This document shows, piece by piece, positions 27,605 to 63,571 of a DNA stretch of 64,000 nt. Each line of letters begins with the position of its first letter. The stretch's first letter is position 1. This DNA comes from Oscillospiraceae bacterium. GTDB lineage: Bacteria > Bacillota > Clostridia > Oscillospirales > CAG-272. The DNA lies in contig SVRE01000002.1 in NCBI GenBank assembly GCA_015065005.1, forward strand, positions 1 to 64,000, written 5' to 3'. The notes below the pieces were generated by a model. That model had not been told where the DNA came from, ran no database searches, and worked only from the letters and a program-made list of their open reading frames with translations. The position numbers and the translations under genes were made by a program.

Positions 27605-27680
27605 GCGCCCTTAGCTCAGCGGATAGAGTGCCCGGCTACGAACCGGTAGGTCGAGAGTTCGAATCTCCCAGGGCGCGCCA
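27605..27680 (+). tRNA. tRNA-Arg (anticodon ACG), CCA encoded
   Basis: GCGCCCTTAGCTCAGCGGATAGAGTGCCCGGCTACGAACCGGTAGGTCGAGAGTTCGAATCTCCCAGGGCGCGCCA; cloverleaf with acceptor GCGCCCT/AGGGCGC. Confidence 0.95.
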
Positions 27681-30065: not shown

Positions 30066-30092
30066 TTTCACTCCAAATAATTGTTAGTTATT
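30064..30092 (-). repeat. Right arm of perfect 29-bp inverted repeat
   Basis: ATTTTCACTCCAAATAATTGTTAGTTATT, exact reverse complement of 27815-27843. Confidence 0.97.
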
Positions 30093-30100
30093 GCAATTAA

Positions 30101-30132
30101 ATTATATCACGATATGATATAATTTTCAATGA
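30101..30132 (-). promoter_or_regulatory. thsB promoter overlapping a perfect palindrome
   Basis: Minus strand TTGAAA, 17 nt, TATAAT; ATTATATCA-CGATA-TGATATAAT (30101-30123). Confidence 0.65.
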
Positions 30133-30158
30133 ATTTCAACAAATATTGGGAGGCTTTT

Positions 30159-31106: not shown

Positions 31107-31337
31107 TTAAAATGACACTAAGTCCTCCACAACATCTTTAAAATGAATTTCTTCTAAGCCGAGCTTGTTACAATTATCAATTAGATTTTCGACAGAGGCT
31201 TTATCCTGTGTCAAATCATTAAAAGCCTTTATTAATTCATATGAATTGCTATCATCCTGTTCAATAAGTGCAATACCATAAAAATCAAGCTCTTTTTCTG
31301 TATGATATGTCGTAGTTGTAAGTATGTACTTTTTCAT
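31107..31337 (-). CDS. Small DUF6514-like protein (copy 1)
   Basis: MKKYILTTTTYHTEKELDFYGIALI...; paralogue at 34896-35123. Confidence 0.6.
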   Translation of the reverse strand: MKKYILTTTTYHTEKELDFYGIALIEQDDSNSYELIKAFNDLTQDKASVENLIDNCNKLGLEEIHFKDVVEDLVSF

Positions 31338-31347
31338 TTTTCTCTCC

Positions 31348-31581
31348 TTATACTAATGATAAATCTTTTCCGTAAACGCATATGCTTAAATCACCGACAT
31401 TAATATATAATGCTTTAAATATCCGTTTTAGTGTTGACCATTTTGGATCTACATCACCAAGCTCAATGTTTTCTAGTCCTGTTATACTTGTATCACTTGA
31501 CTCGGCAAGCTCCGCAACTGTCAAATGCTTATACTCTCTTTTATCACGTATAAATCGGCCAATGTCACGATAAACTGTCAT
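31348..31581 (-). CDS. XRE-family HTH regulator (copy 1)
   Basis: IGRFIRDKREYKHLTVAELAESSDTSITGLENIELGDVDPKWSTLKRI; paralogue at 35134-35376. Confidence 0.8.
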   Translation of the reverse strand: MTVYRDIGRFIRDKREYKHLTVAELAESSDTSITGLENIELGDVDPKWSTLKRIFKALYINVGDLSICVYGKDLSLV

Positions 31582-34895: not shown

Positions 34896-35123
34896 TTATT
34901 CTGCAATTAAGTCTTGTATTACATTTTCGAAATGGATACTATTTAAATTGTTTTCGTTGCAAAGATTGACTAATTTTTGCATCTTGGCTTTGTTGTCTGT
35001 TAAATCATTAAATGAATCTATCAATTCGTGGAGTTTCCCGTCTGTGTTGATTAGTGCGATACCGTAAAAGGTAATATCATTGTCTATATGATATGTTGTG
35101 CTTGTTAATATGTATTTTTTCAT
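34896..35123 (-). CDS. Small DUF6514-like protein (copy 2)
   Basis: MKKYILTSTTYHIDNDITFYGIALI...; paralogue of 31107-31337. Confidence 0.6.
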   Translation of the reverse strand: MKKYILTSTTYHIDNDITFYGIALINTDGKLHELIDSFNDLTDNKAKMQKLVNLCNENNLNSIHFENVIQDLIAE

Positions 35124-35133
35124 TTTTCTCTCC

Positions 35134-35367
35134 TTATACTAATGTTAAATCTTTTCCATAAACGCAAATATTCAGCTCGCCAACATCGACAGATAGCGTG
35201 CTACATATCCGTTTGACCGTCGACCATTTTGGGTCAGCATCACCAAGCTCGATGTTTTCAAGTGCTGTTACACTCATTTTGCTTAGCTCTGCTAATTCAG
35301 CCACAGTCCAATGCATATGCTCTCTTTTTTCTCGAATAAAACGACCAATATCGCGGTAAACCGTCAT
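35134..35367 (-). CDS. XRE-family HTH regulator (copy 2)
   Basis: MTVYRDIGRFIREKREHMHWTVAELAELSKMSVTALENIELGDADPKWSTVKRI. Confidence 0.8.
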   Translation of the reverse strand: MTVYRDIGRFIREKREHMHWTVAELAELSKMSVTALENIELGDADPKWSTVKRICSTLSVDVGELNICVYGKDLTLV

Positions 35368-36445: not shown

Positions 36446-39400
36446 TTACGAATTAGAATTTAGAATTGCTGCAATTGTGTATATAAATGTATTTATTCTT
36501 GTTGCCTTATTGAAATCATCCGTCGTATCTTCATCTGTATCGTTAAATCCGGTTGTATGAATTCCCTGTACTACATAGTTTCCATCACATACAAATACTG
36601 GTGATCCACTATTTCTTTCATATGTGTCAGCATCATACCAAAAAGTATAATCATATACTCTAACAACCGTTCCATCGCTGCGATACATTCGATAATCTAA
36701 ATCAGCAGGGTATCCAATAATTGATATACTATCATCAATAATAGTTTCTGGAGTTAAAGACATTTCTAACCAACCAGTTTTTTCTCCAATATTATCTTCT
36801 AAAACACATATTCCCCAGTCATAATCAATTTCTATTGACTCATAAAATTCTTTTTGAATATAACAACTTTCCACTTTAGTATATCCGTATGGTGCCACTA
36901 CATTATTTGACGTGATTAAAGAAGCTCCCGGATATATTATAATTTCATCTGGGAAACTAGGATTATCTATATTGTCCTCAAACTCATCTTTTGTTATATC
37001 ACCATATAAATTGTGTCCAGCTGTCATTAACAAGTTTGGTCCTACTAAGAAGCCTGTTCCCTTTCTTACTAAATTTTGAGGTTTTTCTCCAGGTATAATC
37101 ACATTGTAATAATAAGCTTTAATATAGCAAACCATTTTATAGGGCTCTTGTGAGGTATTGTATATAGGTTGTCTGTTATCTTCTCCAATAACATCCATCG
37201 GCATTACAGCACTATCTTCATTCAATACAAAGTCTTCCACAATCCCATCTGCATTAATTGTAATGTTTGATGTAGTATTAGTGCTAAAACTATTTAAATC
37301 ACTAATGCTTACAAACTCTTCCTGTGCAGTATTCATGCCATAATGAACAATGCTAGCCACATTTCCAGCAACATCCAATTCTTTGTTTATATTACTACTA
37401 TATGAAACTGTGTAATACACTTCATCCGGTAGTATATCATTATTGTAAGTCCAAGAATTGATTATTGTAAAAGTACTACTGTTTCCTTCACTCTTACTTA
37501 ATGTGATTTTTCTACCTTTTTCATCAAATATATATTTTTCTCTAACATTATCTGCATTTGAAGATAAATTAGCACCTAAATCAGTACAAACTGTATTATC
37601 TGAATTATATGCTATATTATGTTGAAATTGTAGAATACTATTATCATTATATACTTGAACCGAAGAAACCGATCCGTCTTCATTGAAAGTATACTGTATG
37701 TGTTTTGATTCTAAATCATCTGTTATTTTTTCAATCTTTGTAGAATTTTCAAAATAATTAATGTTTATTGTATTGTCCTTTGTATTGTCTGTGTCATCAT
37801 ACTCTATCGCTGATAAAACATTATTATCCCAAGTTAAAGACACTTCTAAATTCGTTACAAAGTTATGCACAGTTAACAATTCATCGTCTGTATTGTATGT
37901 AAATTCAGCTTGTGGAATTTGAATATTATCCACAGTAACATAGTCAATACAAGAAAGATTTCCATCTTCATATGACAAGAACAAAACATTTCCTTGAGCA
38001 TCACATATTTTCAATAAATTTCCACTGCTATCAAAATATTTTTGTGTTCCATCATAATTTTTCAGTATAAAATCACCGCTTGTTGTTTTTTCAAGCACAT
38101 AATCAATCTCATCTTCTGGATAAAACACAGTTGGGTTGGTAACCGCTTGAAGGACTCCTGAGGGTGTCTCTTCATAAGGCACATACATTCCCCAATAATT
38201 CTTTTGAAGATACGGAGAAAACGAATGAGCTGTACCATCCGCATCCGTCCAAACGCAAATATCATCTACTGCACTTGTGTCAGGGTCATTCGCCTTATTA
38301 AAATCAAGTATGGTAATTTTTTCGTGGAAGCTCGGTGTCCACTTGTTTTCAATTGAATTATACACCATATTAATATCATATGTCAACCCCTGACTAATGG
38401 TTGTTAAATTAGCCACATATGTTAGACTTCCGTTTTGTAAATTAACATAGCTCGTTCCTTGAGTACCCAAGGAGTTTGTGGCATAAGCATAATAATCTTC
38501 AATTCCGGTACTGCTAACATATGTTAACTCCATTCGAGTAGCATACCAATTACTGGTGTTTTCAATAGTACTTATACGAGCTGTCGCTTCGACAGTTTGT
38601 GGCAAATTGACCGCTTTCACACATATTCCATGATTTTCAGTTCCACTTTGCCACTCATTATACAGTGATGTAATGTTCCATTCATATGTGCCATCAGATA
38701 TAATTTGCACACTACTTATTGGTGTGCTTTCATAGAATTGGCTTGATGTTGCATACGAAAAATCCTCGCTACTTACCCAATCATCTGTCGCCTTATATAC
38801 ACCGATATAAAAGTCCGTATTATTAGGGTTTTCTACCGTGCTGATAAACATTGATATTTTCGCATTTACTAATAAATCGCCATCATCCATTTCAATAAAA
38901 TCATTAAAATCATTGAATTTAACAAATCCTGGGTTATCTAAAAATTCACCCATAAAATTACCAATGATCATTACTCCCATTCCCCAATAGTTTCCATTAT
39001 CACTCATAACAAAGGTGTCGGTGTCTACCTCTTCCGAAACGAGCGTTGGGTCAATAGTGACAGGAAATTCTCTTTCCTCTGCGTTTATCCACTCTGCATT
39101 TGCTGTTACGGTTAGGGTGTATTTCCACTTGCTGTTTTGAACAAGAGAATATTCGACGCTATTACTGTATTCATTGTTTGCATCAAGCATATATGGCGCG
39201 GGGATTTCGTAGACTTGCTCGTCACTATCGTAGTCGGACAGGATGATAGCTCCGTTTACAAGCTCTGCGCTTAGGTTATTTAGCTTAAGCTCGAAGGTAT
39301 ATGTATAAGAGTCTTGCTTTTCTTTGACAATAATATTTTCTTTAATATTATTACCCACCAAGACATATTCAATATCTATTCCGTCATAGATATTTGTATA

Positions 39401-39964
39401 AATAGCCTTTGAAACGAGGTTGTTAAGAACAGACAAGTCCTCGAATTTTCGACTATTATTGCTTTGTGGATTTTCAATTACCACGCTTACTTTATTTGTG
39501 TTTGACGGAGTAAAGTCTATTTTATATTTTCCGTCCTTTATACTAACAAGCCCCGAGGAGCCTGACTTATTTGCGAATTTAATTTCTGATTTGTTATTTG
39601 TGGAATATTCACTGCCATTAAGTGTTAAGGCATTATCAATGTCTATCCACTTGCCGTTAGAATCCTTGTAATGTACCGGTTGTGTATATACAACTGCTTT
39701 TGTAGTACCATCAGACAGTTTAAAATGCTTGATGTTTTCTTCCCTTAATGCTTCGTCCTCTTCTAAGACTATTACATCTTTCGGTTTTTGTTCTGATTGT
39801 ATATCAGCATTTTCACTTGTATTTTCTGTACTTGTATCGTTTGTATCGCCTGTGCCATTGTAAATGGCACTTGCAATAGACGATACAGGCAAGGATGCAA
39901 TGAGAATTAATACTGACATAACGAAAGCCAACATTTTTACGGTTAATCTAATTCTGTTCTTCAT
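36446..39964 (-). CDS. Large secreted protein: DNRLRE/RHS-like scaffold with C-terminal V8/trypsin-like serine protease domain
   Basis: Signal peptide; RHS-like segments (YDGTQKYFDSSGNLLKICDAQGNVLFLSYEDGNLSCIDY); candidate triad LLMTAGHNLYG / IDYDWGICVL / RNSGSPVFVCDGNYVVQGIHTTG. Confidence 0.72.
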   Translation of the reverse strand: MKNRIRLTVKMLAFVMSVLILIASLPVSSIASAIYNGTGDTNDTSTENTSENADIQSEQKPKDVIVLEEDEALREENIKHFKLSDGTTKAVVYTQPVHYKDSNGKWIDIDNALTLNGSEYSTNNKSEIKFANKSGSSGLVSIKDGKYKIDFTPSNTNKVSVVIENPQSNNSRKFEDLSVLNNLVSKAIYTNIYDGIDIEYVLVGNNIKENIIVKEKQDSYTYTFELKLNNLSAELVNGAIILSDYDSDEQVYEIPAPYMLDANNEYSNSVEYSLVQNSKWKYTLTVTANAEWINAEEREFPVTIDPTLVSEEVDTDTFVMSDNGNYWGMGVMIIGNFMGEFLDNPGFVKFNDFNDFIEMDDGDLLVNAKISMFISTVENPNNTDFYIGVYKATDDWVSSEDFSYATSSQFYESTPISSVQIISDGTYEWNITSLYNEWQSGTENHGICVKAVNLPQTVEATARISTIENTSNWYATRMELTYVSSTGIEDYYAYATNSLGTQGTSYVNLQNGSLTYVANLTTISQGLTYDINMVYNSIENKWTPSFHEKITILDFNKANDPDTSAVDDICVWTDADGTAHSFSPYLQKNYWGMYVPYEETPSGVLQAVTNPTVFYPEDEIDYVLEKTTSGDFILKNYDGTQKYFDSSGNLLKICDAQGNVLFLSYEDGNLSCIDYVTVDNIQIPQAEFTYNTDDELLTVHNFVTNLEVSLTWDNNVLSAIEYDDTDNTKDNTININYFENSTKIEKITDDLESKHIQYTFNEDGSVSSVQVYNDNSILQFQHNIAYNSDNTVCTDLGANLSSNADNVREKYIFDEKGRKITLSKSEGNSSTFTIINSWTYNNDILPDEVYYTVSYSSNINKELDVAGNVASIVHYGMNTAQEEFVSISDLNSFSTNTTSNITINADGIVEDFVLNEDSAVMPMDVIGEDNRQPIYNTSQEPYKMVCYIKAYYYNVIIPGEKPQNLVRKGTGFLVGPNLLMTAGHNLYGDITKDEFEDNIDNPSFPDEIIIYPGASLITSNNVVAPYGYTKVESCYIQKEFYESIEIDYDWGICVLEDNIGEKTGWLEMSLTPETIIDDSISIIGYPADLDYRMYRSDGTVVRVYDYTFWYDADTYERNSGSPVFVCDGNYVVQGIHTTGFNDTDEDTTDDFNKATRINTFIYTIAAILNSNS

Positions 39965-42436: not shown

Positions 42437-43348
42437 TTAATCAAGCAGTTTGCCTATTTTATTCATCATATCTGCTCGGTGTTCTATCATAGAATGAGCA
42501 TATCGCTTTAATGTGATTGTTGGATTTTTATGACCTAATGTAACAGAAAGTGTTTTTACATCCATTCCACACTCTAATGCTCTTGTTGCAAAGGTGTGTC
42601 TTAATGAGTGAAAGCCTTTATGTTCAATGCCAAGTTTCTTTAATATTCTTTCAAAGGTTCGTTGATAAGATCGCACCTCTGCGCCATACTTTGTATTGCC
42701 GTCAACTACATATCCACTTTTGTTATTCTGTTTCATTACTTTTAATATTGGTAATAGTTGCTTAGGAAAAACAACTATTCTTTCAGAGGTTTCTGTTTTG
42801 GTAGTGTCTATTACCTTTACATATTCCTTATTTATCCAAGAGTCTCTGCAGGTTTTAGATATATTAATAATTCGCTTTTGCAGGTCTATATCACTCCACT
42901 TTAACGATAATAGTTCTCCAATTCTCAAGCCTGTGTATAGGCAGAGAATTATTCCATAAAGCTTAGGAATATTCTTTTCCTTGATATAGGTTTCTATTTG
43001 CTTTTGCTCTTGCTTCCTAAAGCTCTCAACCGGTTTTTCCCTTACTTTAGGTCTTTGAATTAAATCAGAGAATTGCTTTGTTGCTTTACCTACTGATACA
43101 GCTAAATGTAATGAATTTTTCAGAATGTTTATAATCCCATTTACGGTATTAGTAGATAGTCCTGCCTCTGATAAATTTACTACAAATTTCTGTAGCTCCA
43201 ATGCAGATAAATCTTCTATTTCATAATCGCCAAGCTTTACTGCAATGTGCTTATCAATTTGATGCTTGTAATTTGTATAAGTCCTATATTTAGCTCTTGG
43301 CTTAACATAATATTCAAGCCATTCGGATAGCCAATCCTTAAATTTCAT
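42437..43348 (-). CDS. Site-specific tyrosine integrase (Tn916/phage type)
   Basis: CLYTGLRIGELLSLKWSDID, GFHSLRHTFATRALECGMDVKTLSVTLGHKNPTITLKRYAHS. Confidence 0.93.
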   Translation of the reverse strand: MKFKDWLSEWLEYYVKPRAKYRTYTNYKHQIDKHIAVKLGDYEIEDLSALELQKFVVNLSEAGLSTNTVNGIINILKNSLHLAVSVGKATKQFSDLIQRPKVREKPVESFRKQEQKQIETYIKEKNIPKLYGIILCLYTGLRIGELLSLKWSDIDLQKRIINISKTCRDSWINKEYVKVIDTTKTETSERIVVFPKQLLPILKVMKQNNKSGYVVDGNTKYGAEVRSYQRTFERILKKLGIEHKGFHSLRHTFATRALECGMDVKTLSVTLGHKNPTITLKRYAHSMIEHRADMMNKIGKLLD

Positions 43349-43726: not shown

Positions 43727-44767
43727 TTATACGTTAGAGGTCGGCATTTGCTTTATTACTTCTGGCGATACCGTTCCCACATATTCGCCCTCTTTCCAAC
43801 AAGTAAAGTCGTCAAAAAGCAGTAGCTTTCTGTCCTCTAAGCCAATATTACACACTACATCTTCCTCTAATATGTCAGAAACGAAGTATTGTGGTAAGCC
43901 TTTAGAATACACTATTTTTTCGCCTGTCTTTTCAATGTATTTCATCATATATGCTAAGGACTCTCCAATGTTCTCATTTTCATTCAATGGTTCAAAGTCT
44001 GTCCTTCCAAACAGTTCATTAAAATAGTCAGATTGCCACGTTTCTTGCATCCTTTTCTTTTTGGTGTTAAAATCACGAACCTTAATTAAATATCCCGGTA
44101 ATGTTTTATCGGGAATATAAAAAATGCCGTGAAAATGTAATCTTTGGTTTTTGGGAGATCTCTCCCATACTCCTATATACTTCCATCCCTTACGGTTTGC
44201 AAACGAGCCCAGCCTATTTCTTAACTTTTTTCTAAAAGAATCCTCTGTATGCTTCTTATCGTCATAAGTGAATGTGCAGAAATAATTGAATTTTTGAAGG
44301 TTTGCTTTCCTTGTCATTCGTATTCTGCGACAGATAAGGTTTCGTTGCTTTCTTTCGAGCTGCTGATCTACATATTCTTCCGTTTTTTCAAGAGAATAGA
44401 AGTACGGTCGTAGCTTTTGTATCATAAATTCTCGCCTTTTATCCTTCTTCATTTTAAGAGTTTCCCTATACATTTCTTCAAACAACTCTTTACGGGTTGT
44501 TTTTCTTGTTTTGGGCTTGTTCTGAACCTCTTTTTCAACGTTTTCTTGCTCATTCAAGTCTATGCTTGACTGAGAAAAATCCTCTGAATTTTCGGCTATT
44601 TCAAGGTCAAAAGGCGGTGCTTTTTCGTCTGTGTTTTCGGAGTCATTAACAGGAACTTCTATGATTTCCTCAAGGCGTGATGCCGTTCTTTTTGTAGGCT
44701 TTTCTGTATGCAGAATACCAATATAATGGCTTCCATCAAAATATACCTTTGTTTGATAGTACGGCAT
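43727..44767 (-). CDS. HUH-type replication initiator (rolling-circle Rep-like)
   Basis: FTYDDKKHTEDSFRKKLRNRLGSFANRKGWKYIGVWERSPKNQRLHFHGIFYIP (HxH) and YMMKYIEKTGEK tyrosine region. Confidence 0.75.
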   Translation of the reverse strand: MPYYQTKVYFDGSHYIGILHTEKPTKRTASRLEEIIEVPVNDSENTDEKAPPFDLEIAENSEDFSQSSIDLNEQENVEKEVQNKPKTRKTTRKELFEEMYRETLKMKKDKRREFMIQKLRPYFYSLEKTEEYVDQQLERKQRNLICRRIRMTRKANLQKFNYFCTFTYDDKKHTEDSFRKKLRNRLGSFANRKGWKYIGVWERSPKNQRLHFHGIFYIPDKTLPGYLIKVRDFNTKKKRMQETWQSDYFNELFGRTDFEPLNENENIGESLAYMMKYIEKTGEKIVYSKGLPQYFVSDILEEDVVCNIGLEDRKLLLFDDFTCWKEGEYVGTVSPEVIKQMPTSNV

Positions 44768-50199: not shown

Positions 50200-50808
50200 A
50201 TGGATAAAACAATTAACTTGCAACTTGTAAGAGATAGGATTAATGCATCTGAAATTGGTACAGTGTTTGTAGCAATGGACTTTGTTGATATCTCAGACAA
50301 GACGAATATAAATGCTTATTTGGCCCGTCTGGTTGATGAGGGGCTTGTTCGTCGTATTCTGCGTGGAGTTTACGACAAGCCTGAATTTAATGAATTTTTA
50401 GGCGAATTTGTAGCACCGGCACCAGACAAGGTGGCAAATGCACTTGCACGTAATTTCGGCTGGACTATTGTTCCTTGTGGAGACACTGCATTAAATTTAC
50501 TTGGCTTATCCACACAGGTTCCTGCAACTTGGGTTTATGTAAGTGATGGCACATATAAGGAATACACCTACGATAATACCACCATTCAGTTTAAAAGAAC
50601 AACCAATAAAGAGGTTTCCAAACTGTCATATAAAACAGCACTTGTAATTCAAGCATTAAAGGCTCTCGGCAAGGACAAAATAGATGATACCGTTATTAGT
50701 CGTTTAAGAAAACTTTTGACAGACGAAGAAAAGAAAAATATGCTTGATGAAGCAAAGGCAGCAACCTCTTGGATTTACGAATATATCAAACTAATTTGTA
50801 GGAGCTGA
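50200..50808 (+). CDS. abiEi: AbiEi-like antitoxin (DUF6088 type)
   Basis: Winged-helix N-terminus YLARLVDEGLVRRILRGVYDKP; APAPDKVANALARNFGWTIVPCGDTALNLLGLS. Confidence 0.85.
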   Translation: MDKTINLQLVRDRINASEIGTVFVAMDFVDISDKTNINAYLARLVDEGLVRRILRGVYDKPEFNEFLGEFVAPAPDKVANALARNFGWTIVPCGDTALNLLGLSTQVPATWVYVSDGTYKEYTYDNTTIQFKRTTNKEVSKLSYKTALVIQALKALGKDKIDDTVISRLRKLLTDEEKKNMLDEAKAATSWIYEYIKLICRS

Positions 50809-50812
50809 CAAT

Positions 50813-51817
50813 ATGCGTAACATTGCAAAGATTAATGAAAATGATAGAAAGGCGCTCTTTCATAATACTGCTGCAAAGATGGGTATGACGGATGCGATTA
50901 TAGAAAAGGATTTTTGGGTGTGCTATATGCTTGATTATCTTTTTAACCGTTCTGCTTGGAAAAATAATATTGCATTTAAAGGCGGAACAAGTCTGTCAAA
51001 AGCATACGGACTAATTGAACGCTTTTCCGAGGATATTGATTTGATTCTTGATTGGCGTGTGCTTGGCTATGGACTGAACGAGCCTTGGGAAGCGCGTAGT
51101 AACTCAAAACAGGATGCTTTCAATAAGGAAGCTAACACAAAAGCTGAGGATTTTTTGCGTGATACCTTTCTCCCTTCAATAGTTGCAGATTTAACAGATG
51201 AGCTTGGTGAAAATATCAAGTGCTTTATTGATGAGGATGACCCTCAAACTGTAAAAATTGCATATCCAAATAGCTTTTCAGACGTGTCAATTTTGCAAGA
51301 AATACGCCTTGAAATTGGTGCTCTCGCTGCTTGGACTCCTGTAAAATTAGCAAAAATAACACCTTATGCTGCTGAACAATACGGCAGATTATTCAAGCAA
51401 CCGTCAACCGAGATTTTAACGGTTTTACCAGAACGTACTTTTTGGGAAAAGGTTACGATTTTACATAGAGAAGCCTTTAGAGCTGAGGATAGACCATTTC
51501 CATCAAGATATTCAAGACACTATTATGACCTATACCGTATGATGAAAACACAGGTTAAAGATAACGCCTTGGCAGATAACGACTTGCTTACCCGTGTTGT
51601 AGATTTTAAGGACAAGTTCTATCGCTGTCCTTGGGCAAGATATGACCTTGCAAAGCGTGGCACAATGAAGTTAATGCCACCCGAATACAATGTGGATAAG
51701 CTTCGTGAAGACTATGAGCATATGCAGAATATGCTATTTGGCGAAAAGCCAAGTTTTGAAGAAATTCTGCAAAGTATTGAAGAATTAGAGAAAAATATAA
51801 ATGAAAAAGGTGCCTAA
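50813..51817 (+). CDS. abiEii: AbiEii nucleotidyltransferase toxin
   Basis: IEKDFWVCYMLDYLF, IAFKGGTSLSKAYGLIERFSEDIDLIL (GS-x-D motif region). Confidence 0.92.
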   Translation: MRNIAKINENDRKALFHNTAAKMGMTDAIIEKDFWVCYMLDYLFNRSAWKNNIAFKGGTSLSKAYGLIERFSEDIDLILDWRVLGYGLNEPWEARSNSKQDAFNKEANTKAEDFLRDTFLPSIVADLTDELGENIKCFIDEDDPQTVKIAYPNSFSDVSILQEIRLEIGALAAWTPVKLAKITPYAAEQYGRLFKQPSTEILTVLPERTFWEKVTILHREAFRAEDRPFPSRYSRHYYDLYRMMKTQVKDNALADNDLLTRVVDFKDKFYRCPWARYDLAKRGTMKLMPPEYNVDKLREDYEHMQNMLFGEKPSFEEILQSIEELEKNINEKGA

Positions 51818-51889: not shown

Positions 51890-53278
51890 ATGGATTTAAG
51901 TAAATGTCAAATATTTACTCCGCCACACATTGTAAAATATATGCTTGATAAAATTGATTATACAAGCAAAATTTTCAACAAAAAAATCATTGACAATGCG
52001 TGTGGTACAGGAAATATATTGGTTGAAGTGGTTGAAAGGTTTATTGCAGATGCAAAAAAATCAAAGAAGACCAATGCAGTTATAAAAAAGGGATTAGAAT
52101 CATGTATATATGGATATGATATTGATTCTAAAATGGTAGAAGCCTGCATTAATAATTTAAACGAAGTTGCAGGGCGTTTTAAAATTAGAGATGTTAAATG
52201 GAACATATATAATCAAGATGGTCTTTATATTGAAGACTCATTTGACTATGTTGTTGGCAATCCGCCATATATTTCGTATTTAGATCTTGAAAAAGATACA
52301 AGAGCTAAAACTAAGGAAAAATTCAGCTCTTGTTCCGTGGGTAAATTTGATTATTCATACGCATTTATAGAAAAGGGATTGCAAATTCTAAAATTAAACG
52401 GAAAAATGGCTATGATAAGTCCAGCAAACATGTTTAAAACGGTATTTGCGGATAAATTAAGAGAGATAATAAAACAAGAGTTAACACATATCGTTGATTG
52501 CTCGACAATTAAAATATTTGCAGGGGTGTTAACCACATCAGCAATTACCATATACGAAAAAGGATGCAAATCAAACGTTTTGGTTTACCAAGAATTTGCT
52601 GATGCAGAAAAGAAAGAACAAATTATCAAAAAAGACACGCTAGTTGGGAAATGGAATTTTACTAATTATATCGAATCGGGAAATAGACGCTTTGGAGATT
52701 ATTTTAAAGCTTCAAATTGTATAGCAACTTTAGCAAATAAAGTTTTTATACATAAAATCGATGAACAAGGAAATTTAGCGATTGATGTAGAACCAGAAGC
52801 AGTCAAGGTGGCAATAAGCCCCAAATCTGAGCAATTTGGAATAAAACAGAAGATAATATTTCCATATTATTATGAAAACGGTAAACTTAAAAATTATACT
52901 GAGAAAGAAATAAATTTAAAGTTTCCTAAGTTAATGAAATATTTAACTTCCAAAAGAGTCGAACTAATATCGCGAGACTCGGATAAAAGTGCTAAATGGT
53001 ATGAATATGGTCGCTCACAGGCATTGAGTAGCATGAACCAAGAAAAACTGCTCATTTCAACCATAATAACCAAGGTTGTAAAACTATACAAATTAGATAA
53101 CAATACAATTCCTTATTCTGGAATTTATATTGTTCCTCGTGGAAATGCTTCTTTGGATGATGCAAAACTGATATTACAAACAGAAAGATTTTATAACTAC
53201 TTACATACTAAAGGAGTAAATGTTAGTGGTGAATCAATAAGAATTTCTTCAAGAGATGTTGAAGAATACAGATATTAA
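51890..53278 (+). CDS. N6-adenine DNA methyltransferase (Eco57I/type I HsdM-like)
   Basis: FTPPHIVKYMLDKI, IDNACGTGNILVEV, FDYVVGNPPYISYL. Confidence 0.9.
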   Translation: MDLSKCQIFTPPHIVKYMLDKIDYTSKIFNKKIIDNACGTGNILVEVVERFIADAKKSKKTNAVIKKGLESCIYGYDIDSKMVEACINNLNEVAGRFKIRDVKWNIYNQDGLYIEDSFDYVVGNPPYISYLDLEKDTRAKTKEKFSSCSVGKFDYSYAFIEKGLQILKLNGKMAMISPANMFKTVFADKLREIIKQELTHIVDCSTIKIFAGVLTTSAITIYEKGCKSNVLVYQEFADAEKKEQIIKKDTLVGKWNFTNYIESGNRRFGDYFKASNCIATLANKVFIHKIDEQGNLAIDVEPEAVKVAISPKSEQFGIKQKIIFPYYYENGKLKNYTEKEINLKFPKLMKYLTSKRVELISRDSDKSAKWYEYGRSQALSSMNQEKLLISTIITKVVKLYKLDNNTIPYSGIYIVPRGNASLDDAKLILQTERFYNYLHTKGVNVSGESIRISSRDVEEYRY

Positions 53279-53290
53279 GGAGGGTTTCAA

Positions 53291-55543
53291 ATGGCGAAGA
53301 TACCTTTTAATGTAGATGCAAATACAGCTAGATTAATAGGCCGAGAAAATGTTTCCAAGTTGGACGGAGCTATTATAGAAATAATAAAAAATGCGTATGA
53401 TGCAGATGCAACTATTTGTGCTTTATATTTCGATGAAAGCAACAATAAGTTGTGGATTATTGACAATGGTTGTGGAATGGACGAAGAAATTGTGAAAAAG
53501 CATTGGATGTCAATAGGATATTCTGACAAAGATGTTGAACTTCGTTCTAACAAAGGTAGGATTAAAACAGGAGCAAAAGGAATAGGACGATTTGCATTAG
53601 ATAGGTTGGGTGCTCATTGTACTATGTATACATATAATGGCGGAAATCACATTGTTTGGACTGTAAATTGGGAAGAGTTCATCAGAGGCGTAAATATCAA
53701 TGAGGTGTATGCCGATTTGGAAAATAGCAATTTCATGGAGAGTGGGTTGCTTGATAAGATACAGAATCTTGATGCGAAAAAATTAGCAACTGAAAATTTC
53801 AATACGGGTACAATTTTTGAGATAAACGAGTTAAGAGATGCATGGGACGAAAAATTTTTTGATAGATTGAAAAATAATTTAACTTCTTTGATTCCACCAA
53901 GTTTAGGAAATTCGTTTAAGGTATATTTGTTTGATAACAAGACAACAACAAACGATGCGCAAATCGTATCGGAACTTCTTACATCATATGACTATGCTGT
54001 GGATTTTTCGGTCTCTAATAATGGTGAGGTTAATATAAGTGTTATTAGAAATGAATTTGAATTTGGATCGAAAAATGACTATATTTTAAGTGAAGCAGAC
54101 TTTAACGACAGAGATAAAGAATATTTTAATGGTAAACCGATTGTATTCAATAAGAATGTTAAAGATTTCCATATAGGTATTACCGATGAATCACCGTATT
54201 GTTTGGGAGCCTTTTCTGGAAAAATGTGTTTTTATAAGATAGTTTCACAAGAAAAGAATGAACAGAAATTTTACTATAAACCTTTTGAACACAGAAAATC
54301 TCTTATCAAAAAATATGGCGGAATAAAAATTTACAGAGATGGATTTAGAGTTAGACCCTATGGAGAGAGTGGAACGCCACAGTTTGACTGGTTGCTATTA
54401 TCAAGTCGTCACTATAATTCCGCATATCCAATTAGTTCAAAGTTAGGCAAATGGACAGTAGATTCCTCACAGGTAATAGGGGAAATTAACATTTCAAGGC
54501 TTAATGAAACGCTTAACGATCAAGCCAATAGAGAAGGAATCTTTGAAAACAACGATTTTGAAATATTCAAAAAAATAATAATAGAAATACTTTCGTTTTT
54601 AGAAGATGACCGTCAACAGGTAATTCGAAAATTGAATGATTTGTGGGAAAAAGAAAATCAATCACAAAAAGCAGAAGATGAAATTGAAGATAAATACGAA
54701 AGATATCAAAAAAACAAAAAAGAAAATAATAATTCGAAATCAGAGGATTTTAAGAATGATGAGTACGTACATGTAGAAGATGCGAAAAAGGCGATTGATG
54801 GCAAAACTGCTCAAATCAACGATTTAGAAGATGAAAACAGGCTTTTGCGTTCATTGGCTACAACAGGAATAGCTATAAATACTTATATGCATGAAATGAG
54901 AGCGTTGATTCATGATCTTAAGATGAATGCTAAAAGAGCTAGTGAAGCATATCGAATTAGAAAAGATATAGATGAAGCAATAGCTGCTATAAATAAGGTT
55001 AGAGATGTTACTAAGGATTTTGAGTCTTGGTTTCAAGTCACTATAGGAAGTACTCGTGCAGATAAACGAACACGCCAAAAGGTAAATGTGAAAGAGCTAA
55101 TATTTGAATGTATTGAGTCTTGGGAAAAATCTTTAGGTGATGATATTGAATTCGAGACTAATTTCAGCGAAGAAGAAATTTGGCTTGTTTGCTTTCCGTA
55201 TGAAATCGAGTCAATATTCCATAATTTAATCTCCAATTCTTTTAAGTCTTTTAAAAGAGGAAAAATAGCTAACAAAAAAATATCAGTATCGGTAGTTGCA
55301 AATGAAGATAAAATTATTATAAGCTATAATGATAACGGGGAAGGCTTATTGCCTGAGTTTAAAGTTAATCCGGACATTATATTAAAACAGATGGTTACTG
55401 GAGATATTGTAAACGGTCAAAAGCAAGGTACAGGCTTAGGAATGTGGATAGTTAATAACATAATTTCTGATTATAAGGGAAGAATAGATTTATCTAAAAA
55501 TATAAAATCTGAAAATGGTTTTTACATTGACATAATAATATAG
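53291..55543 (+). CDS. Two-ATPase protein: N-terminal MORC-like GHKL ATPase and C-terminal histidine-kinase DHp-HATPase core
   Basis: N-term: LDGAIIEIIKNAYDADA, LWIIDNGCGMDE, RIKTGAKGIGRFALDRLG. C-term: ATTGIAINTYMHEMRALIHDL (H-box-like), IFHNLISNSFKSF, ISYNDNGEGL, GTGLGMWIV. Confidence 0.82.
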   Translation: MAKIPFNVDANTARLIGRENVSKLDGAIIEIIKNAYDADATICALYFDESNNKLWIIDNGCGMDEEIVKKHWMSIGYSDKDVELRSNKGRIKTGAKGIGRFALDRLGAHCTMYTYNGGNHIVWTVNWEEFIRGVNINEVYADLENSNFMESGLLDKIQNLDAKKLATENFNTGTIFEINELRDAWDEKFFDRLKNNLTSLIPPSLGNSFKVYLFDNKTTTNDAQIVSELLTSYDYAVDFSVSNNGEVNISVIRNEFEFGSKNDYILSEADFNDRDKEYFNGKPIVFNKNVKDFHIGITDESPYCLGAFSGKMCFYKIVSQEKNEQKFYYKPFEHRKSLIKKYGGIKIYRDGFRVRPYGESGTPQFDWLLLSSRHYNSAYPISSKLGKWTVDSSQVIGEINISRLNETLNDQANREGIFENNDFEIFKKIIIEILSFLEDDRQQVIRKLNDLWEKENQSQKAEDEIEDKYERYQKNKKENNNSKSEDFKNDEYVHVEDAKKAIDGKTAQINDLEDENRLLRSLATTGIAINTYMHEMRALIHDLKMNAKRASEAYRIRKDIDEAIAAINKVRDVTKDFESWFQVTIGSTRADKRTRQKVNVKELIFECIESWEKSLGDDIEFETNFSEEEIWLVCFPYEIESIFHNLISNSFKSFKRGKIANKKISVSVVANEDKIIISYNDNGEGLLPEFKVNPDIILKQMVTGDIVNGQKQGTGLGMWIVNNIISDYKGRIDLSKNIKSENGFYIDIII

Positions 55544-55552
55544 AGGTGAATT

Positions 55553-56185
55553 ATGTACAGGATAGGTTATTTGGATGATGAAAATCGAGAATATGAGAAT
55601 TATAAGGTGGATTTCGCGTTTCATGAAATCGATTTAATTAAAATTACAGGAATAGAAACAAAAGCACAACTTAGAGACTATATTCTTGGAGAAAAATTAG
55701 ATGCGATAATTATTGATTATGATTTATCCAAAAATCACAATGAAGAGTTGATAGATGGGAATTCTTTAGTTAGATATTTAAATATTGAAATACCCGATTT
55801 TCCATCTGTTATTCTAACAAGCTTTGCAGCAGATAGCAGAAATGACAATACTGTTATGCATGCCTTGATATTGGATAGAAACATAATGACAAATGATGTT
55901 GATGGCCCCGAATATTCTAACTTTATTAAGACCATTGAGAATTTGATTACAGTTTTCAAAAAAAGAATGGAACTAAATGTTCAAGAATACCAAACTTTAA
56001 TATTAAGACGAAAAAACTATAATGATTTAACACCCGTTGAAGAGCAAAGACTAATTAGTTTGTATAAACTTCTTTATTCATATGATCTTATTGATGAAAT
56101 AAACCCATCATTGCTAACACCTGCCTTGAGTGAAAAGTTAGATAAAGTATTAAATAGCATCAAAAAACTAACCGAGGGAAAATAA
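55553..56185 (+). CDS. Receiver-like (REC) protein with C-terminal helical extension
   Basis: RIGYLDDENRE, LDAIIIDYDLSKN (candidate phospho-Asp), PSVILTSFA. Confidence 0.65.
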   Translation: MYRIGYLDDENREYENYKVDFAFHEIDLIKITGIETKAQLRDYILGEKLDAIIIDYDLSKNHNEELIDGNSLVRYLNIEIPDFPSVILTSFAADSRNDNTVMHALILDRNIMTNDVDGPEYSNFIKTIENLITVFKKRMELNVQEYQTLILRRKNYNDLTPVEEQRLISLYKLLYSYDLIDEINPSLLTPALSEKLDKVLNSIKKLTEGK

Positions 56186-56189
56186 GAAG

Positions 56190-56771
56190 ATGAGAATACA
56201 CGGGAAGTTTAAAATTAAACGAAGAGAAATTGAAATATCGCATTGGGAAAAACATAAAACACAAGTTGAGGAAGATTTTTTTGGAATATGTGGATACTGT
56301 GGCAACCATTTAAAGGCAACATATTGTCAAAGCCAAATAGATCACTTTGTTCCACAGAAAAAATATCCCGAATATAAGAACAAATATAGTAATTTGGTTT
56401 TTTCATGTAAGGTATGCAATAACAAAAAACGAGATGATTGGCCCAGTGGTGATCCAAGTAAAAATATCACAGATGATGGAAAAAAGGGATATATTGATCC
56501 TGCATCTGATGAATATGACGCTAATTTGGAACGATGCAATGATGGCAATATTGTTGGAATAAGCTCGGTTGGAAAATACATGTCAAATCGTTTAGGCTTT
56601 AATTATCGACCAATTAGCGAAATTCATAAAATTGGGGAATTATATGAAGCAATTCAAAATCTTAGAACAAAAAGAGAACAGGGAGATTTGGATTATGACC
56701 CTGAGCTTTTAAACGAGTTATTTTTAACTTGTGAGGATTTGAGAAATCAAATACATATGCAGAAAGAATAG
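56190..56771 (+). CDS. HNH endonuclease
   Basis: GICGYCGNHLKATYCQSQIDHFVPQKKYPEYKNKYSNLVFSCKVCNNKKRDDWP. Confidence 0.88.
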   Translation: MRIHGKFKIKRREIEISHWEKHKTQVEEDFFGICGYCGNHLKATYCQSQIDHFVPQKKYPEYKNKYSNLVFSCKVCNNKKRDDWPSGDPSKNITDDGKKGYIDPASDEYDANLERCNDGNIVGISSVGKYMSNRLGFNYRPISEIHKIGELYEAIQNLRTKREQGDLDYDPELLNELFLTCEDLRNQIHMQKE

Positions 56772-56832
56772 AACACAGAATTTGTGTTGCTACAAATTAG
56801 CTTTTTATAGTTATCATCTATACAAAACTGAA

Positions 56833-56869
56833 AATCAAGGATTTGCAAAACGAAATCCTTGATTTTTTT
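56833..56869 (+). terminator. Terminator at the end of the methylase/ATPase/HNH operon
   Basis: AATCAAGGATTT-GCAAAACG-AAATCCTTGATT-TTTTT, 12-bp stem. Confidence 0.85.
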
Positions 56870-58962: not shown

Positions 58963-59446
58963 TCATATATCCCTCCTTTTTTGCTTGTACCTATACTTTA
59001 TCAAATTTTAAGTGTATTTTCCACTAACTTACTTTGCTAATTTCCTCTTTTTATTCACACAGTTTGTTGTCAAACTCTTACTGAATATTGCATTATCCTT
59101 TACAAAGTTTCACTTTTCCTTTGGTTTTGGAGTATAGCAGAAAAAGTCAGTGCTGAAAAGGGGGAACGAAAATGCGTTGGTATCTTAATTGTTGCTTACA
59201 AGCATTTTAGTTCTGGCAAGCCCTTGTCAGCCCTGCCTTTTCCCGCTGAGGAGAAGTTGTGTTTGAATGAGTTAAATAGTCAGTAAATATAGGTTTTTAT
59301 CATAGTTTGTTTGAATTGTGGTTGATTTATAGATTGAAATTGGCTTATTACGAAAGGAAAGTGGGTGAGTGAGATAGTAAAAAAACGAAAATTTTTAGTT
59401 TATGATTGTATCAATACAACAAATTTTAAAGAAAAGGAGATTCAAA

Positions 59447-60961
59447 ATGAAAACAGCAGTAGTTTATGCTCGATATTCGAGTGAAAGACAAACTGAGCAA
59501 TCCATAGAGGGACAACTAAGAGAGTGCAACGAATACGCAATGCGAAATGATATTGTTATTGTTGACACATACATTGACCGAGCTATGACGGGAACTAACG
59601 ATAATAGAACAGATTTTCAACGATTATTAAAGGATTGCTCAAAGAACGCTTGGGATTATGTACTTGTATACAAGCTTGATAGATTTTCAAGAAACAAATA
59701 CGAAATGGCTATGCACAAAAAGACCTTACGTGATAATGGCATTAAGCTTATATCCGTAAAAGAAAACATTCCGGACTCCCCGGAGGGCATTATTCTTGAG
59801 TCCTTACTTGAAGGTATGGCAGAATATTATTCGGCGGAATTATCACAAAAAGTTAAGCGTGGAATGCGTGAGGGAAGAATTAAAGGACACTTTGCCGGTG
59901 GAGCTGTGTTGTTTGGCTACAAGGTAATAAACAAGAAAATATATATTGATGAAAATACCTCTAAAATTGTTATCCGAATATTCCAAGAGTTTGCAGCAGG
60001 CAAATTTGTTAAAGATATTATTGCCGACCTTACAAATGAAGGAATATATCATAACGGAAAGCCGTTAGGTAGAAATACAGTATATAAGCTTCTGAGAAAC
60101 GAAAAATATATTGGTATAGTACGATACGGCAATGAAGAATTTACTAATATTTATCCTCAAATTGTACCAAATACGTTGTTTGAGGTTGTTCAAACAAAGA
60201 TTGATGGCAACCGTTACGGCAAACACGATTCCGATGCAATTTATATTCTTAAAGGCAAAATGAAATGTGGTTACTGTGGCAAAACTATCACATCAGAGAG
60301 CGGCACAGGCAAAAGCGGAAAGGTTAAGCGTTACTATAAATGCTTTGGTAGAAAAAATGCGGTAAACGGTTGTAAGAAAGATACTATTAGAAAGGAAACT
60401 ATTGAAGGCTTGATTGTTGACTCAATTCTTAAATTTTTTGAGGACAGGCAAAATTTATCTTTTATTGCAGATAAGATAGTGGAGCTTCATCAACAAAGAG
60501 TTGCCGATACATCCGTTCTCAATATTTTATTAGAAGAAAAGGCTGCTCTTACAAAATCTATTGATAATATTTTGGATGCAATAGCAGAGGGCTACCGTTC
60601 TTCTAAAACAAAAGAAAAACTTGAAGAATTTGAAGCAAAGCTTGATATTGTAGAGGGCAAAATTTTAATTGAAAAGGCTAAAGAAAAATCGGCTATTACG
60701 AAGGAAGATATTATTAAGTTCATATCTAAATGTATCAAAAAAGAACCTTTGCAAATGATTAAACTTTTGGTAAAGGAAATCATACTATTTGACGACAAGG
60801 TTGAAATTTACTACAATTACATAGACAAGAAAAGTCCTGATGAATTTGAACATCAGGCTTTTTTGTTTTATGAGGAAAATGTTGATTTATATTTAAAGGA
60901 TGATTACAAATTAAAGGAGCGGGATTACATCTTAAACGTACTTGTTCAGATGTATATTTGA
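59447..60961 (+). CDS. Large serine recombinase (resolvase/invertase plus zinc-ribbon and recombinase domain)
   Basis: VVYARYSSERQTEQSIEGQL, YKLDRFSRNKYE, GRNTVYKLLRNEKYIGIVRYG, KMKCGYCGKTITSESG. Confidence 0.95.
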   Translation: MKTAVVYARYSSERQTEQSIEGQLRECNEYAMRNDIVIVDTYIDRAMTGTNDNRTDFQRLLKDCSKNAWDYVLVYKLDRFSRNKYEMAMHKKTLRDNGIKLISVKENIPDSPEGIILESLLEGMAEYYSAELSQKVKRGMREGRIKGHFAGGAVLFGYKVINKKIYIDENTSKIVIRIFQEFAAGKFVKDIIADLTNEGIYHNGKPLGRNTVYKLLRNEKYIGIVRYGNEEFTNIYPQIVPNTLFEVVQTKIDGNRYGKHDSDAIYILKGKMKCGYCGKTITSESGTGKSGKVKRYYKCFGRKNAVNGCKKDTIRKETIEGLIVDSILKFFEDRQNLSFIADKIVELHQQRVADTSVLNILLEEKAALTKSIDNILDAIAEGYRSSKTKEKLEEFEAKLDIVEGKILIEKAKEKSAITKEDIIKFISKCIKKEPLQMIKLLVKEIILFDDKVEIYYNYIDKKSPDEFEHQAFLFYEENVDLYLKDDYKLKERDYILNVLVQMYI

Positions 60962-61498: not shown

Positions 61499-61915
61499 AT
61501 GGTTACTATTAGTTTGAATTTTGATGGATATTGGAGAGAAGCAAACAAAAAAGGTATCCCCGACAAATCAGGAATTTATTGTGTCTATACTTGTACATAC
61601 AACCATGATACAAAAAAAGTAACAATCCACAAATTGTTGTATATTGGCGAATCGAATAACGTAAATGATAGAATTAATAACCATGAAAGATTGAGTGATT
61701 GGAAAAATGCTTTAGAAAAAAATCAGACATTGTGTTATTCGTTTGCTCCTGCTATTAATCCTGATAGAGAACGTGCGGAAGCAGCTCTTATATATAAGCA
61801 TAAGCCTCCTATGAATGATGAGTATGTAAATAGTTTTACATACAATGATACAAGCATTATTTTGTCTGGAAATACGAGTAAATTAGTAGAGTCATTTGTA
61901 ATTTACAATGATTGA
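61499..61915 (+). CDS. GIY-YIG nuclease-like protein
   Basis: SGIYCVYTCTYNHDTKKVTIHKLLYIGESNNVNDRINNHE. Confidence 0.75.
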   Translation: MVTISLNFDGYWREANKKGIPDKSGIYCVYTCTYNHDTKKVTIHKLLYIGESNNVNDRINNHERLSDWKNALEKNQTLCYSFAPAINPDRERAEAALIYKHKPPMNDEYVNSFTYNDTSIILSGNTSKLVESFVIYND

Positions 61916-62059: not shown

Positions 62060-63571
62060 ATGTTCAAAAAAAATAAAATGAAGAAAATATTAAAGGAGCT
62101 TACACAATACACTTTTTTTGAAAAGATGTTGGTTGCTCAAACCTCTGCACAAAAGTTAATGCATTTTGATCATTTGGAACTGTTTCCAAATGAAACCAGT
62201 AATACTGTCATGCCTTGGGAAATTGAGGCATTTGCCGAGTTATCTATTCTTTCAACTGGCACTCATCCGACTAAATCATTTAAGACGCACAACAGTAAAG
62301 CCTTTTGCAAAATCATTACAACTATTAGAAATTTTTTACCGCCCAAGCTTAAAGAAGAGATAGACACCCCGAAATTCGCAAATGATTTCTTCATGGCTTG
62401 TGGTATGGTACAATTTAAGCCTCAAAAATATGCGTTAAATCGATTGTATCGTTATGATTATTTTTGGTCATTCAAAAATAATAAGATAGACATGCCAAAA
62501 ATATTTTCAGAAAACTTCAATGGACTATCCTATAAATATTTCATTGAACTTGCAGTTTTAACATATTTTGCTGCCAGCATGGATGGAAATTCATCAAATG
62601 CTTTTCGATACATCAGTACAACCCACATTGACGCTATAAAATTACTGTGCATAACTCGGGACGAATATATCGAAAGGCAGAACGAAAAGAATTTGGGCGA
62701 TGTAAATAACGTGGTTTACGGTTTTAATTATCTTTATCCATACCCTTATATAGAATTTAACTCTAATATCTATCTTCCTGTTCCATATTTAATTATCGAT
62801 GCTGTATGCGAATCGTTGGTAACAAGAGTTACAAATGATAATGGTCGAATTCGAGAAAATATTGGAAAGTATGTAGCGCAATCATATATTGAGTATATTC
62901 TAAAAGATGGACATGTTTATGAAGAAGTTGTTCCTGAAATACCATATGTGGTAGGACGACAAACCGTTGATGCTCCAGACGTTATGATCAAAGACGGCAA
63001 TAGATTTTGCTTTATCGATTCTAAACTGTCTACACCAAAGCTTTCGCTCCGTCATTTCAATGAAACAGATATAGAAAACAATATAAAACAATATGCAAAA
63101 AATGTTAAGCAGATATATAATAGAATTGTTGATTTCTTGGATTCTAAGTATTATCCATTCACTTCTTCATCTAACATAGACAAAGCCAATGTTTTTGGAT
63201 TGGTTGTTGTTTTTGAAAATGCTTTTATTTTCAAGTCAAGAATTTTGACTGAAGTATTCAATGACTTGAATGTCGATAGCGAATCAGCAGAAGCAGAATT
63301 TATCAAATCTAACATATACATAACAGATTTAAGCGATATAGAATCTTTTGCTTCCAGTTCATACAATATATTTACAGCATTGGAATCGAAAAGAGATAAT
63401 AATAAGCGATGGGGGGATATGGGACTTTATAGCAATGAGTTATACAGGGACGAACCAAAAAAGAGTCAATCTTTACTCTCTTTTGAAAGTAAAATTAGAA
63501 ATATACTAAAAGAACATTTGGCAAAAATGATGGCGCTTGGATTGATACCTACACCAACAGAAGCATCATAG
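62060..63571 (+). CDS. Putative PD-(D/E)XK nuclease-like protein of unknown family
   Basis: APDVMIKDGNRFCFIDSKLSTPK fits PD-x(n)-(D/E)xK; AAGGAGGA upstream. Confidence 0.5.
   Translation: MFKKNKMKKILKELTQYTFFEKMLVAQTSAQKLMHFDHLELFPNETSNTVMPWEIEAFAELSILSTGTHPTKSFKTHNSKAFCKIITTIRNFLPPKLKEEIDTPKFANDFFMACGMVQFKPQKYALNRLYRYDYFWSFKNNKIDMPKIFSENFNGLSYKYFIELAVLTYFAASMDGNSSNAFRYISTTHIDAIKLLCITRDEYIERQNEKNLGDVNNVVYGFNYLYPYPYIEFNSNIYLPVPYLIIDAVCESLVTRVTNDNGRIRENIGKYVAQSYIEYILKDGHVYEEVVPEIPYVVGRQTVDAPDVMIKDGNRFCFIDSKLSTPKLSLRHFNETDIENNIKQYAKNVKQIYNRIVDFLDSKYYPFTSSSNIDKANVFGLVVVFENAFIFKSRILTEVFNDLNVDSESAEAEFIKSNIYITDLSDIESFASSSYNIFTALESKRDNNKRWGDMGLYSNELYRDEPKKSQSLLSFESKIRNILKEHLAKMMALGLIPTPTEAS

Follow-up and report, generated by a model that had tools for sequence, protein, structure and literature searches.

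We identified an operon of four genes which we interpret, with moderate confidence, as a self-contained restriction-modification (R-M)-type system, probably directed against phages, with an internal two-component phosphorelay that governs DNA cutting. The interpretation builds on the folds of the encoded proteins, on conserved catalytic residues, on strict gene linkage, on the co-divergence of three of the genes, on exchange of the methyltransferase and on replacement in the nuclease slot. The linkage of the four genes suggests a DNA cutter that is switched on by a relay and does not simply patrol for unmarked DNA.

Organization of the locus

The window analyzed here is a stretch of 64,000 nt from Oscillospiraceae bacterium (assembly GCA_015065005.1, contig SVRE01000002.1, positions 1-64,000). 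The operon (51890-56771) consists of four ORFs, all on the forward strand. The first codes for an N6-adenine DNA methyltransferase (MTase; 51890..53278, 462 aa). It is followed by a gene for a MORC-like GHKL-S5 ATPase which is fused to a histidine-kinase core consisting of DHp and CA domains (HK; 53291..55543, 750 aa). The third gene codes for a receiver protein with a helical C-terminal extension (RR; 55553..56185, 210 aa) and the last one for the predicted effector, a PtuB-like HNH (His-Me finger) nuclease with a Cys4 zinc site (HNH; 56190..56771, 193 aa). A preliminary description of this DNA had reported four co-directional genes with gaps of 12, 9 and 4 bp and a closing terminator. The ORFs match exactly, and an intrinsic-terminator-like hairpin (15 paired positions in the stem, followed by a T run) is located at 56830..56867 on the same strand. 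It stems from a consensus scan only, which found three such structures in comparison to 3.5 expected in shuffled sequences, and is thus supportive but not proof.

The operon sits in a tRNA-Arg-linked, low-GC region with defence genes. An AbiEi/AbiEii pair (50200-51817) is encoded 72 bp upstream and could share a transcript with the operon. AbiE was rejected as a part of the four-gene system, being absent from the recurrent neighbours in relatives.

The MORC-kinase protein and its receiver

HK was predicted to have two ATP-binding folds, a MORC-like one at the N-terminus and that of a histidine kinase at the C-terminus. Pfam (HATPase_c_3, 1.4e-18, residues 24-131; HATPase_c, 3.3e-14, residues 639-737), Foldseek and conserved residues agree on this. 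For the AlphaFold2 model (pLDDT 85.3), the top Foldseek matches are MORC3 (5ix1), SMCHD1 and MORC2, which resemble the N-terminal region, and then HK853-RR468 complexes, with HK853 resembling the C-terminal region. Structure-model alignments were built without plasmid-derived rows. As in MORC and paraMORC proteins, an N-terminal GHKL domain with intact ATP motifs precedes an S5 domain. The motif residues E30, K33, N34, D58, G60 and G62 are retained in 82-83 of 85 sequences and K96-A102 in all 85, while each column of the GAKGIGRFA block is conserved in 82-85 of them. In the kinase core, H534 (codon at 54890..54892, forward strand) is the predicted phospho-acceptor. It aligns with the H-box of HK853 (ISHEL), whose His is the phosphoacceptor H260, and it is invariant (85/85), so that the H-box had been proposed correctly. 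N645/N649 are also retained, as are G713/G715/G717 (85/85).

RR had been called a receiver-like protein without a recognizable output domain. The single sequence matches Pfam Response_reg at 0.038 only, and a scan of genome contigs with it returned no relatives. Because RR diverges too fast, the HK alignment was used to find relatives. The assignment as a receiver is confirmed by the RR family profile, which matches PDB receivers with E = 8.1e-7, and by the structure model (pLDDT 91.2), which has a (beta-alpha)5 fold and for which the Foldseek matches are receivers (probability 1.00). The fold is followed by helices (residues 119-156, 161-176 and 190-208) and by nothing else, and Pfam has no match in RR beyond Response_reg. 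It is tempting to guess that these helices are an HNH-binding element. The predicted phospho-acceptor, D55 (codon at 55715..55717, forward strand), is invariant (82/82), and D8 (80/82), T89 (80/82) and K/R109 (79/82) are nearly so. The window protein has Arg at position 109, where Lys is usual, as do 19 of the 82 sequences. Taken as a pair, HK and RR have the features of a two-component system, these being the H-box His and the N, G1 and G2 boxes in the kinase and the DD/D/T/K set in the receiver.

The nuclease and the effector slot

The assignment of the last gene as an HNH nuclease holds (Pfam HNH, 6e-9), with the catalytic residues conserved throughout: H52, N68, N77, K80, C34 and C73 are found in 79/79 sequences, and C37 and C76 in 68/79. 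The similarity to PtuB is weak (PADLOC PtuB, 1e-15; NCBIfam PtuB, 39.1 bits). In three loci (L136, L138 and L139), an MBL-fold protein (HTDSDHVGG) occupies the slot after RR and replaces HNH. HK and MTase are homologous in these loci, and the receiver matches the RR profile in both loci tested.

Distribution and co-divergence

The preliminary description had made its proposal depend on co-occurrence of the genes in other genomes. All four are present in 59 of the 60 related loci with enough flank, which greatly exceeds chance, and the module spans at least seven phyla. The genes mostly overlap or lie within a few bp of each other, in the orders MT-HK-RR-HNH (24 loci) and HK-RR-HNH-MT (51 loci). 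When viral contigs were searched in reverse with HNH alone, RR adjoined eight of the nine matches and HK adjoined seven; in one of these loci (L106), the missing HK lies beyond the contig end. A fifth recurrent gene was sought but not found: among 109 immediate neighbours, each family is represented four times at most. The distribution of the system is rare and sporadic; none of 28 other genomes of the same genus has it. In the flanks of relatives there are integrases, resolvases and further R-M genes, a few each, as raw counts for which no enrichment is claimed.

Among 67 systems, HK, RR and HNH co-diverge (HK-RR, r = 0.893; HK-HNH, 0.810; RR-HNH, 0.810; permutation maximum about 0.13), which is also expected of any stably linked cassette. 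The partial correlations are 0.69 for HK-RR given HNH and 0.33 for HNH-RR given HK. In an MI/APC covariation analysis of HK and RR, the top pairs fall into the DHp helix at twice the expectation, but they are equally enriched against HNH, so that phylogenetic noise is possible.

Exchange of the methyltransferase

MTase matches Eco57I (2.7e-20) and N6_Mtase (7.2e-18) in Pfam and contains an NPPY motif (VVGNPPYIS), which is found in 65 of 67 related systems. It is an exchangeable module (family F2 in the present scheme), with at least 16 switches of MTase family on the HK tree. Two loci (L013 and L014) illustrate this, with identities of 70% for HK, 66% for RR and 68% for HNH but only 19% for MTase. 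HNH and MTase show no residual covariation given HK (partial r = -0.018, p = 0.78); a correlation (r = 0.24, p = 0.007) is seen within MTase family F1 only. As in classical type II R-M systems, an MTase and a nuclease are encoded together (in the 59 loci mentioned above), but the co-divergence of the two that comes with a shared recognition site is absent. The proposed methylation-protected system, if understood as classical type II protection, is questionable, given that the MTase swaps repeatedly without a matching change of the nuclease.

Proposed mechanism and alternatives

We propose that MTase places an m6A mark on host DNA. The MORC-like GHKL-S5 module of HK may serve as an ATP-gated clamp, sensing DNA that is foreign or unmodified or else the state of MTase on it. 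A long coiled coil (residues 421-555) would transmit clamp closure to the kinase core (DHp/CA), and this core would autophosphorylate at H534 and pass the phosphate to D55 of the receiver. Phosphorylated RR, via its helical extension, may then bind or assemble HNH and turn the nuclease on, or release an inhibited complex. The receiver could also act in the opposite direction, inhibiting instead of activating, or HK, RR and HNH may stay together as one fixed complex. We infer gating of HNH by the phosphorelay, an idea that is favoured by residue conservation, structure prediction and co-divergence.

It is conceivable, and we suggest this tentatively, that the system belongs to an immune class of "phospho-gated restriction". 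A fixed MORC-kinase/receiver chassis would detect unmarked or invading DNA and respond by phosphate signalling, and it would accept both MTases (m6A of at least six families; m5C in sister clades) and nucleases (HNH, MBL-fold, Vsr) as plug-in parts. With recognition and cleavage uncoupled, a change of MTase would not require the nuclease to evolve anew, which would set the class apart from known R-M types. If the phosphorelay reading is true, it would explain how methylation specificity changes freely, since nuclease and MTase need not recognize one common site. The operon would also be the first R-M-type system, as far as known, with a cutter commanded by His-Asp phosphotransfer, and would give bacterial MORC-family ATPases a role that can be tested. 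Their eukaryotic relatives silence chromatin, and the clamp mechanism is still debated.

Alternatively, HK, RR and HNH might assemble into a single ATP-driven DNA-scanning complex, a MORC clamp joined with a nuclease and resembling Septu PtuAB or GHKL-Shedu, with the kinase and receiver residues only timing ATP turnover or assembly and no phosphate freely passed. Structurally, HK is matched best by a MORC-type ATPase, HNH is distantly PtuB-like, and the three proteins co-diverge as a block. Also, one Shedu protein requires a GHKL ATPase domain alongside its nuclease domain (PMC12137116). We nevertheless consider such a restriction machine unlikely, as the full His-to-Asp chemistry, from H534 and the N, G1 and G2 boxes to D55, D8, T89 and K/R109, is under selection. 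The operon might also be an addiction or abortive module, in which the kinase senses loss or inhibition of MTase, or phage takeover, and HNH degrades host and phage DNA so that the cell dies. Exchangeable MTases would fit a kinase that reads methylation in general and not one cognate site, and a toxin-antitoxin pair, AbiE, adjoins the operon in the window. This option, which we rate as rather unlikely, overlaps with the phosphorelay reading and differs mainly in whose DNA is cut. It is improbable that the pair regulates R-M gene expression, with HNH as a type II restriction enzyme of the ordinary kind: transcription is the usual target of two-component systems, and an R-M-controlling signalling cascade was proposed for HEF_HK/Response_reg_2 (PMC8011034), but RR has no DNA-binding output domain, with only helices following the receiver fold, and the HNH-MTase covariation expected of a type II pair with one target site is absent (partial r = -0.02, p = 0.78).

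Comparison with known systems

Septu (PtuAB) and the retron HNH effector PtuB share with the window system the HNH family resemblance and an ATPase beside HNH; the window system additionally has MTase, HK and RR. Septu was rejected because the PtuB score (39.1 bits) is far below the cut-off (150 bits) and a PtuA-type ABC ATPase neighbour is missing. MADS was also rejected (NCBIfam MAD2 at 29.9 bits against a cut-off of 720 bits, with further mad genes absent from the neighbours tested), as was BREX, on cut-offs and missing genes. Detocs is a two-component-like phage defence in which a kinase-to-receiver relay controls an effector enzyme; it is not known to use HNH nuclease effectors or to include an MTase or a MORC module. 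The solved structures nearest to MTase are 7lni/8cxz (E = 1.7e-17, residues 9-226), which are C. difficile CamA, an orphan MTase, whereas the MTase of the window belongs to an operon of the restriction type.

ParaMORC and MORC ATPases with an N-terminal GHKL and S5 module were described in R-M systems, and the paraMORC1 family is reported to co-occur with HNH genes (PMC2292703; Iyer, Abhiman, Aravind 2008). A search of that text turned up neither a receiver nor a two-component partner; in the window protein, the MORC module is joined to a histidine-kinase core. Closest is a paraMORC-derived HK and RR pair predicted in m5C R-M loci (HEF_HK/Response_reg_2; PF19191/PF19192), with HNH_2 neighbours named in some genomes but no fixed four-gene module (PMC8011034; Bellieny-Rabelo et al. 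2021). In both cases, a kinase with HATPase_c_3, H-box and HATPase_c adjoins a receiver-like gene, a DNA MTase and a nuclease, and the kinases are homologous over their length (profile-profile probability 100, E = 5e-56). Filing under this pair was rejected since both Pfam models are unmatched. PF19191 has no match at E<=0.1 for the window HK or at E<=1 for two relatives, while true members match. PF19192 has none in the window RR or two relatives (profile-profile probability 0.2). The MTase is of the N6-adenine type here and of the C5 type there, RR has 210 aa as compared to about 550-640 aa with no detectable similarity, and the nuclease is HNH instead of Vsr or another type, in a four-gene set that is almost invariant here.

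The operon had not been recognized as a named defence system. This stands for the MTase/HK/RR/HNH set, of which we found no description in the literature searched, but the kinase/receiver half had already been predicted (PMC8011034). The window system is a variant of an already predicted, still uncharacterized kind, and what is new is the fixed four-gene set with its differing receiver, MTase and nuclease.

Operon and domain assignments

The operon at 51890-56771 (forward strand) codes for an N6-adenine DNA methyltransferase (MTase, 51890-53278), a MORC-like ATPase with a histidine kinase (HK, 53291-55543), a receiver protein (RR, 55553-56185) and an HNH nuclease (HNH, 56190-56771). A re-check of ORFs and terminator returned the genes, their spacings (12, 9 and 4 bp) and the terminator (56830-56867) as in the preliminary description. 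Its domain reading is borne out by Pfam (Eco57I/N6_Mtase; HATPase_c_3 and HATPase_c; HNH), with Response_reg matching RR below threshold. In PADLOC-DB (version 2023), the MTase and HNH matched solely generic MTase_II and PtuB-like HNH models, the GHKL region of HK weakly matched a REase_II model (9.5e-6), and no model matched RR. For NCBIfam, a BbrUII/HgiDII restriction-enzyme family partially matches the HK N-terminus (64 bits versus a cut-off of 550), and many histidine-kinase models match its C-terminus. HK is present in one copy in the 2.06-Mb source assembly and was not found in 28 other genomes of the genus.

The RR model (pLDDT 91.2) is a (beta-alpha)5 fold with three helices C-terminal to it, of which the first is long (119-156). 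Foldseek matches it to receivers at a probability of 1.00, in agreement with the initial receiver-like call. RR is devoid of a DNA-binding output, which argues against plain transcriptional control. In the HK model (pLDDT 85.3), with domains named from secondary structure, GHKL and S5 are followed by a coiled coil (421-555), a second DHp helix (560-586) and CA (596-749). Its best Foldseek matches are MORC3, SMCHD1 and MORC2, with HK853-RR468 complexes next, which agrees with the proposed combination of a MORC-like part and a histidine kinase.

The proposed H-box is likewise consistent with HK853, with whose H-box H534 lines up. This residue is invariant among 85 HKs (E535 in 78). Each column of the MORC block GAKGIGRFA is conserved in 82-85 of these HKs, and N645, N649, D681, G683 and G713-G717 in 84-85 (T714 in 82). 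Among 82 RRs, D55 is invariant, D8 and T89 are each found in 80, and 79 have K or R at the beta-5 Lys position. That His and Asp are so strictly conserved speaks against a purely structural role. H52, N68, N77 and K80 are invariant in 79 HNH proteins.

Conservation and co-divergence

Full-length HK relatives were found on plasmids by tblastn. HK is annotated with exactly RR, HNH and an N-6 MTase as its neighbours in Bacteroides finegoldii and Salipiger; in an Ensifer record without annotation, an HMM scan placed these three beside HK. A profile search of genome contigs with a 4-row HK alignment gave at least 497 relatives, the best 80 of which were kept (L009-L088). All four genes, whose co-occurrence in other genomes had been named beforehand as one of the points on which the proposal could fail, were detected by local HMM scans in 59 of the 60 loci with room on both sides (the window and three plasmid loci counted), a fraction that describes the clade of the window HK, not every paraMORC kinase, because the 80 were picked by similarity to it. 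The order is MTase-HK-RR-HNH in 24 and HK-RR-HNH-MTase in 51, and borders overlap or almost touch (median 1.5 bp for HK-RR, -1 bp for RR-HNH). The best 80 of at least 497 include Bacteroidota (27), Bacillota (25), Pseudomonadota (7), Melainabacteria (4), Campylobacterota (2), Deferribacterota (1), Kiritimatiellota (1) and 6 without phylum. In a reverse search of viral contigs with HNH only, RR adjoins 8 of 9 matches and HK 7; the RR-bearing locus without HK starts at a contig end. There is no recurrent fifth gene, each family occurring at most 4 times among 109 immediate neighbours, and the four genes therefore look like the complete set.

Across 67 non-redundant systems, distance correlations are 0.893 (HK-RR), 0.810 (HK-HNH) and 0.810 (RR-HNH), while MTase distances correlate with any other component at only 0.33-0.42. 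Partial correlations are 0.69 for HK-RR given HNH and 0.33 for HNH-RR given HK; between HNH and MTase none remains once HK is controlled for (r = -0.018, p = 0.78), and within MTase family F1 alone (18 systems) the residual is 0.24 (p = 0.007). Such partial values favour HK because its distance is longest and least noisy. On an HK tree built by a quick method, the MTase switches among six families at least 16 times, and the genes are reordered at least 6 times. Examples are four pairs of loci (L013/L014, L050/L075, L011/L020 and L066/L080) with related HK, RR and HNH, and MTases that are only 15-19% identical. Given the missing residual correlation and the repeated MTase exchange, changes in the nuclease do not follow those in the MTase, unlike in an ordinary type II pair.

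Related loci and proposed mechanism

The kinases of a sister pair in R-M loci (HEF_HK/Response_reg_2) are homologous to the window HK along the full length. These loci code for a C5-MTase, a ~1000-aa HK and a 546-617-aa RR, and Vsr adjoins two of them. Campylobacter plasmids and many prophage-like contigs carry a C5-MTase and HK, often with Vsr. The related loci L124-L134 mostly contain HK, RR and HNH; another N6-type MTase is upstream in five that were examined, and blast adds further cases. In three viral-collection contigs, an N6-MTase, HK and a 227-228-aa RR are followed, in the HNH position, by a ~335-aa MBL-fold protein with the motif HTDSDHVGG (L136:8724-9725, L138:5731-6738, L139:8731-9753), which we read as ComEC-like. 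This suggests that effectors occupy the position behind the receiver. In Taibaiella, genome G490 combines the four-gene module described here (L046) with a HEF_HK/Response_reg_2 system (L102, C32:222000-237000; AAA ATPase and Vsr come next), and a single cell would thus hold both sister relays.

The observations cover the folds and catalytic residues, the linkage and co-divergence of the genes, the exchange of the MTase and the replacement of the effector. They bear out what the preliminary description saw and support its interpretation in part. As to mechanism, the MORC clamp may detect DNA, or the MTase on DNA, phosphate would pass from H534 of the kinase to D55 of RR, and HNH would be licensed by phosphorylated RR.

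Genomic surroundings

Directly after tRNA-Arg (27605-27680), GC drops from ~0.43 to 0.27-0.36. The region 27605-64000 is a mobile island bearing defence genes, with two tyrosine integrases (30129-31049, 42437-43348), a Rep-like gene (43727-44767) and a serine recombinase (59402-60961). Directly beside the tRNA, a SIR2-like and STALD (SLOG) protein faces a TIR-domain protein (27876-30071); the convergent genes look like an NAD-linked defence pair. A 300-nt direct repeat (31264-31563 and 35050-35349, 77% identical) flanks ~3.5 kb and extends ~100 nt more at 81%. The 1172-aa protein at 36446-39964, with a C-terminal trypsin-like domain (969-1130) as its sole recognised domain, is possibly a protease-type defence protein. 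An AbiEi-like (DUF6088) and AbiEii pair (50200-51817) ends 72 bp upstream of the MTase and may share a transcript with the four-gene operon. Beside a GIY-YIG protein (61499-61915), a 503-aa protein (62060-63571) has no Pfam, PADLOC or NCBIfam match.

Comparison with known systems

Searches of open-access full texts turned up no account of the four-gene module; one in a subscription journal or preprint is possible. The sister HK/RR pair has been predicted, with a proposed tie to R-M (PMC8011034); paraMORCs have been located in R-M loci, and HNH neighbours of paraMORC1 recorded (PMC2292703). The module would be a further form of this already predicted kinase/receiver kind of R-M system.
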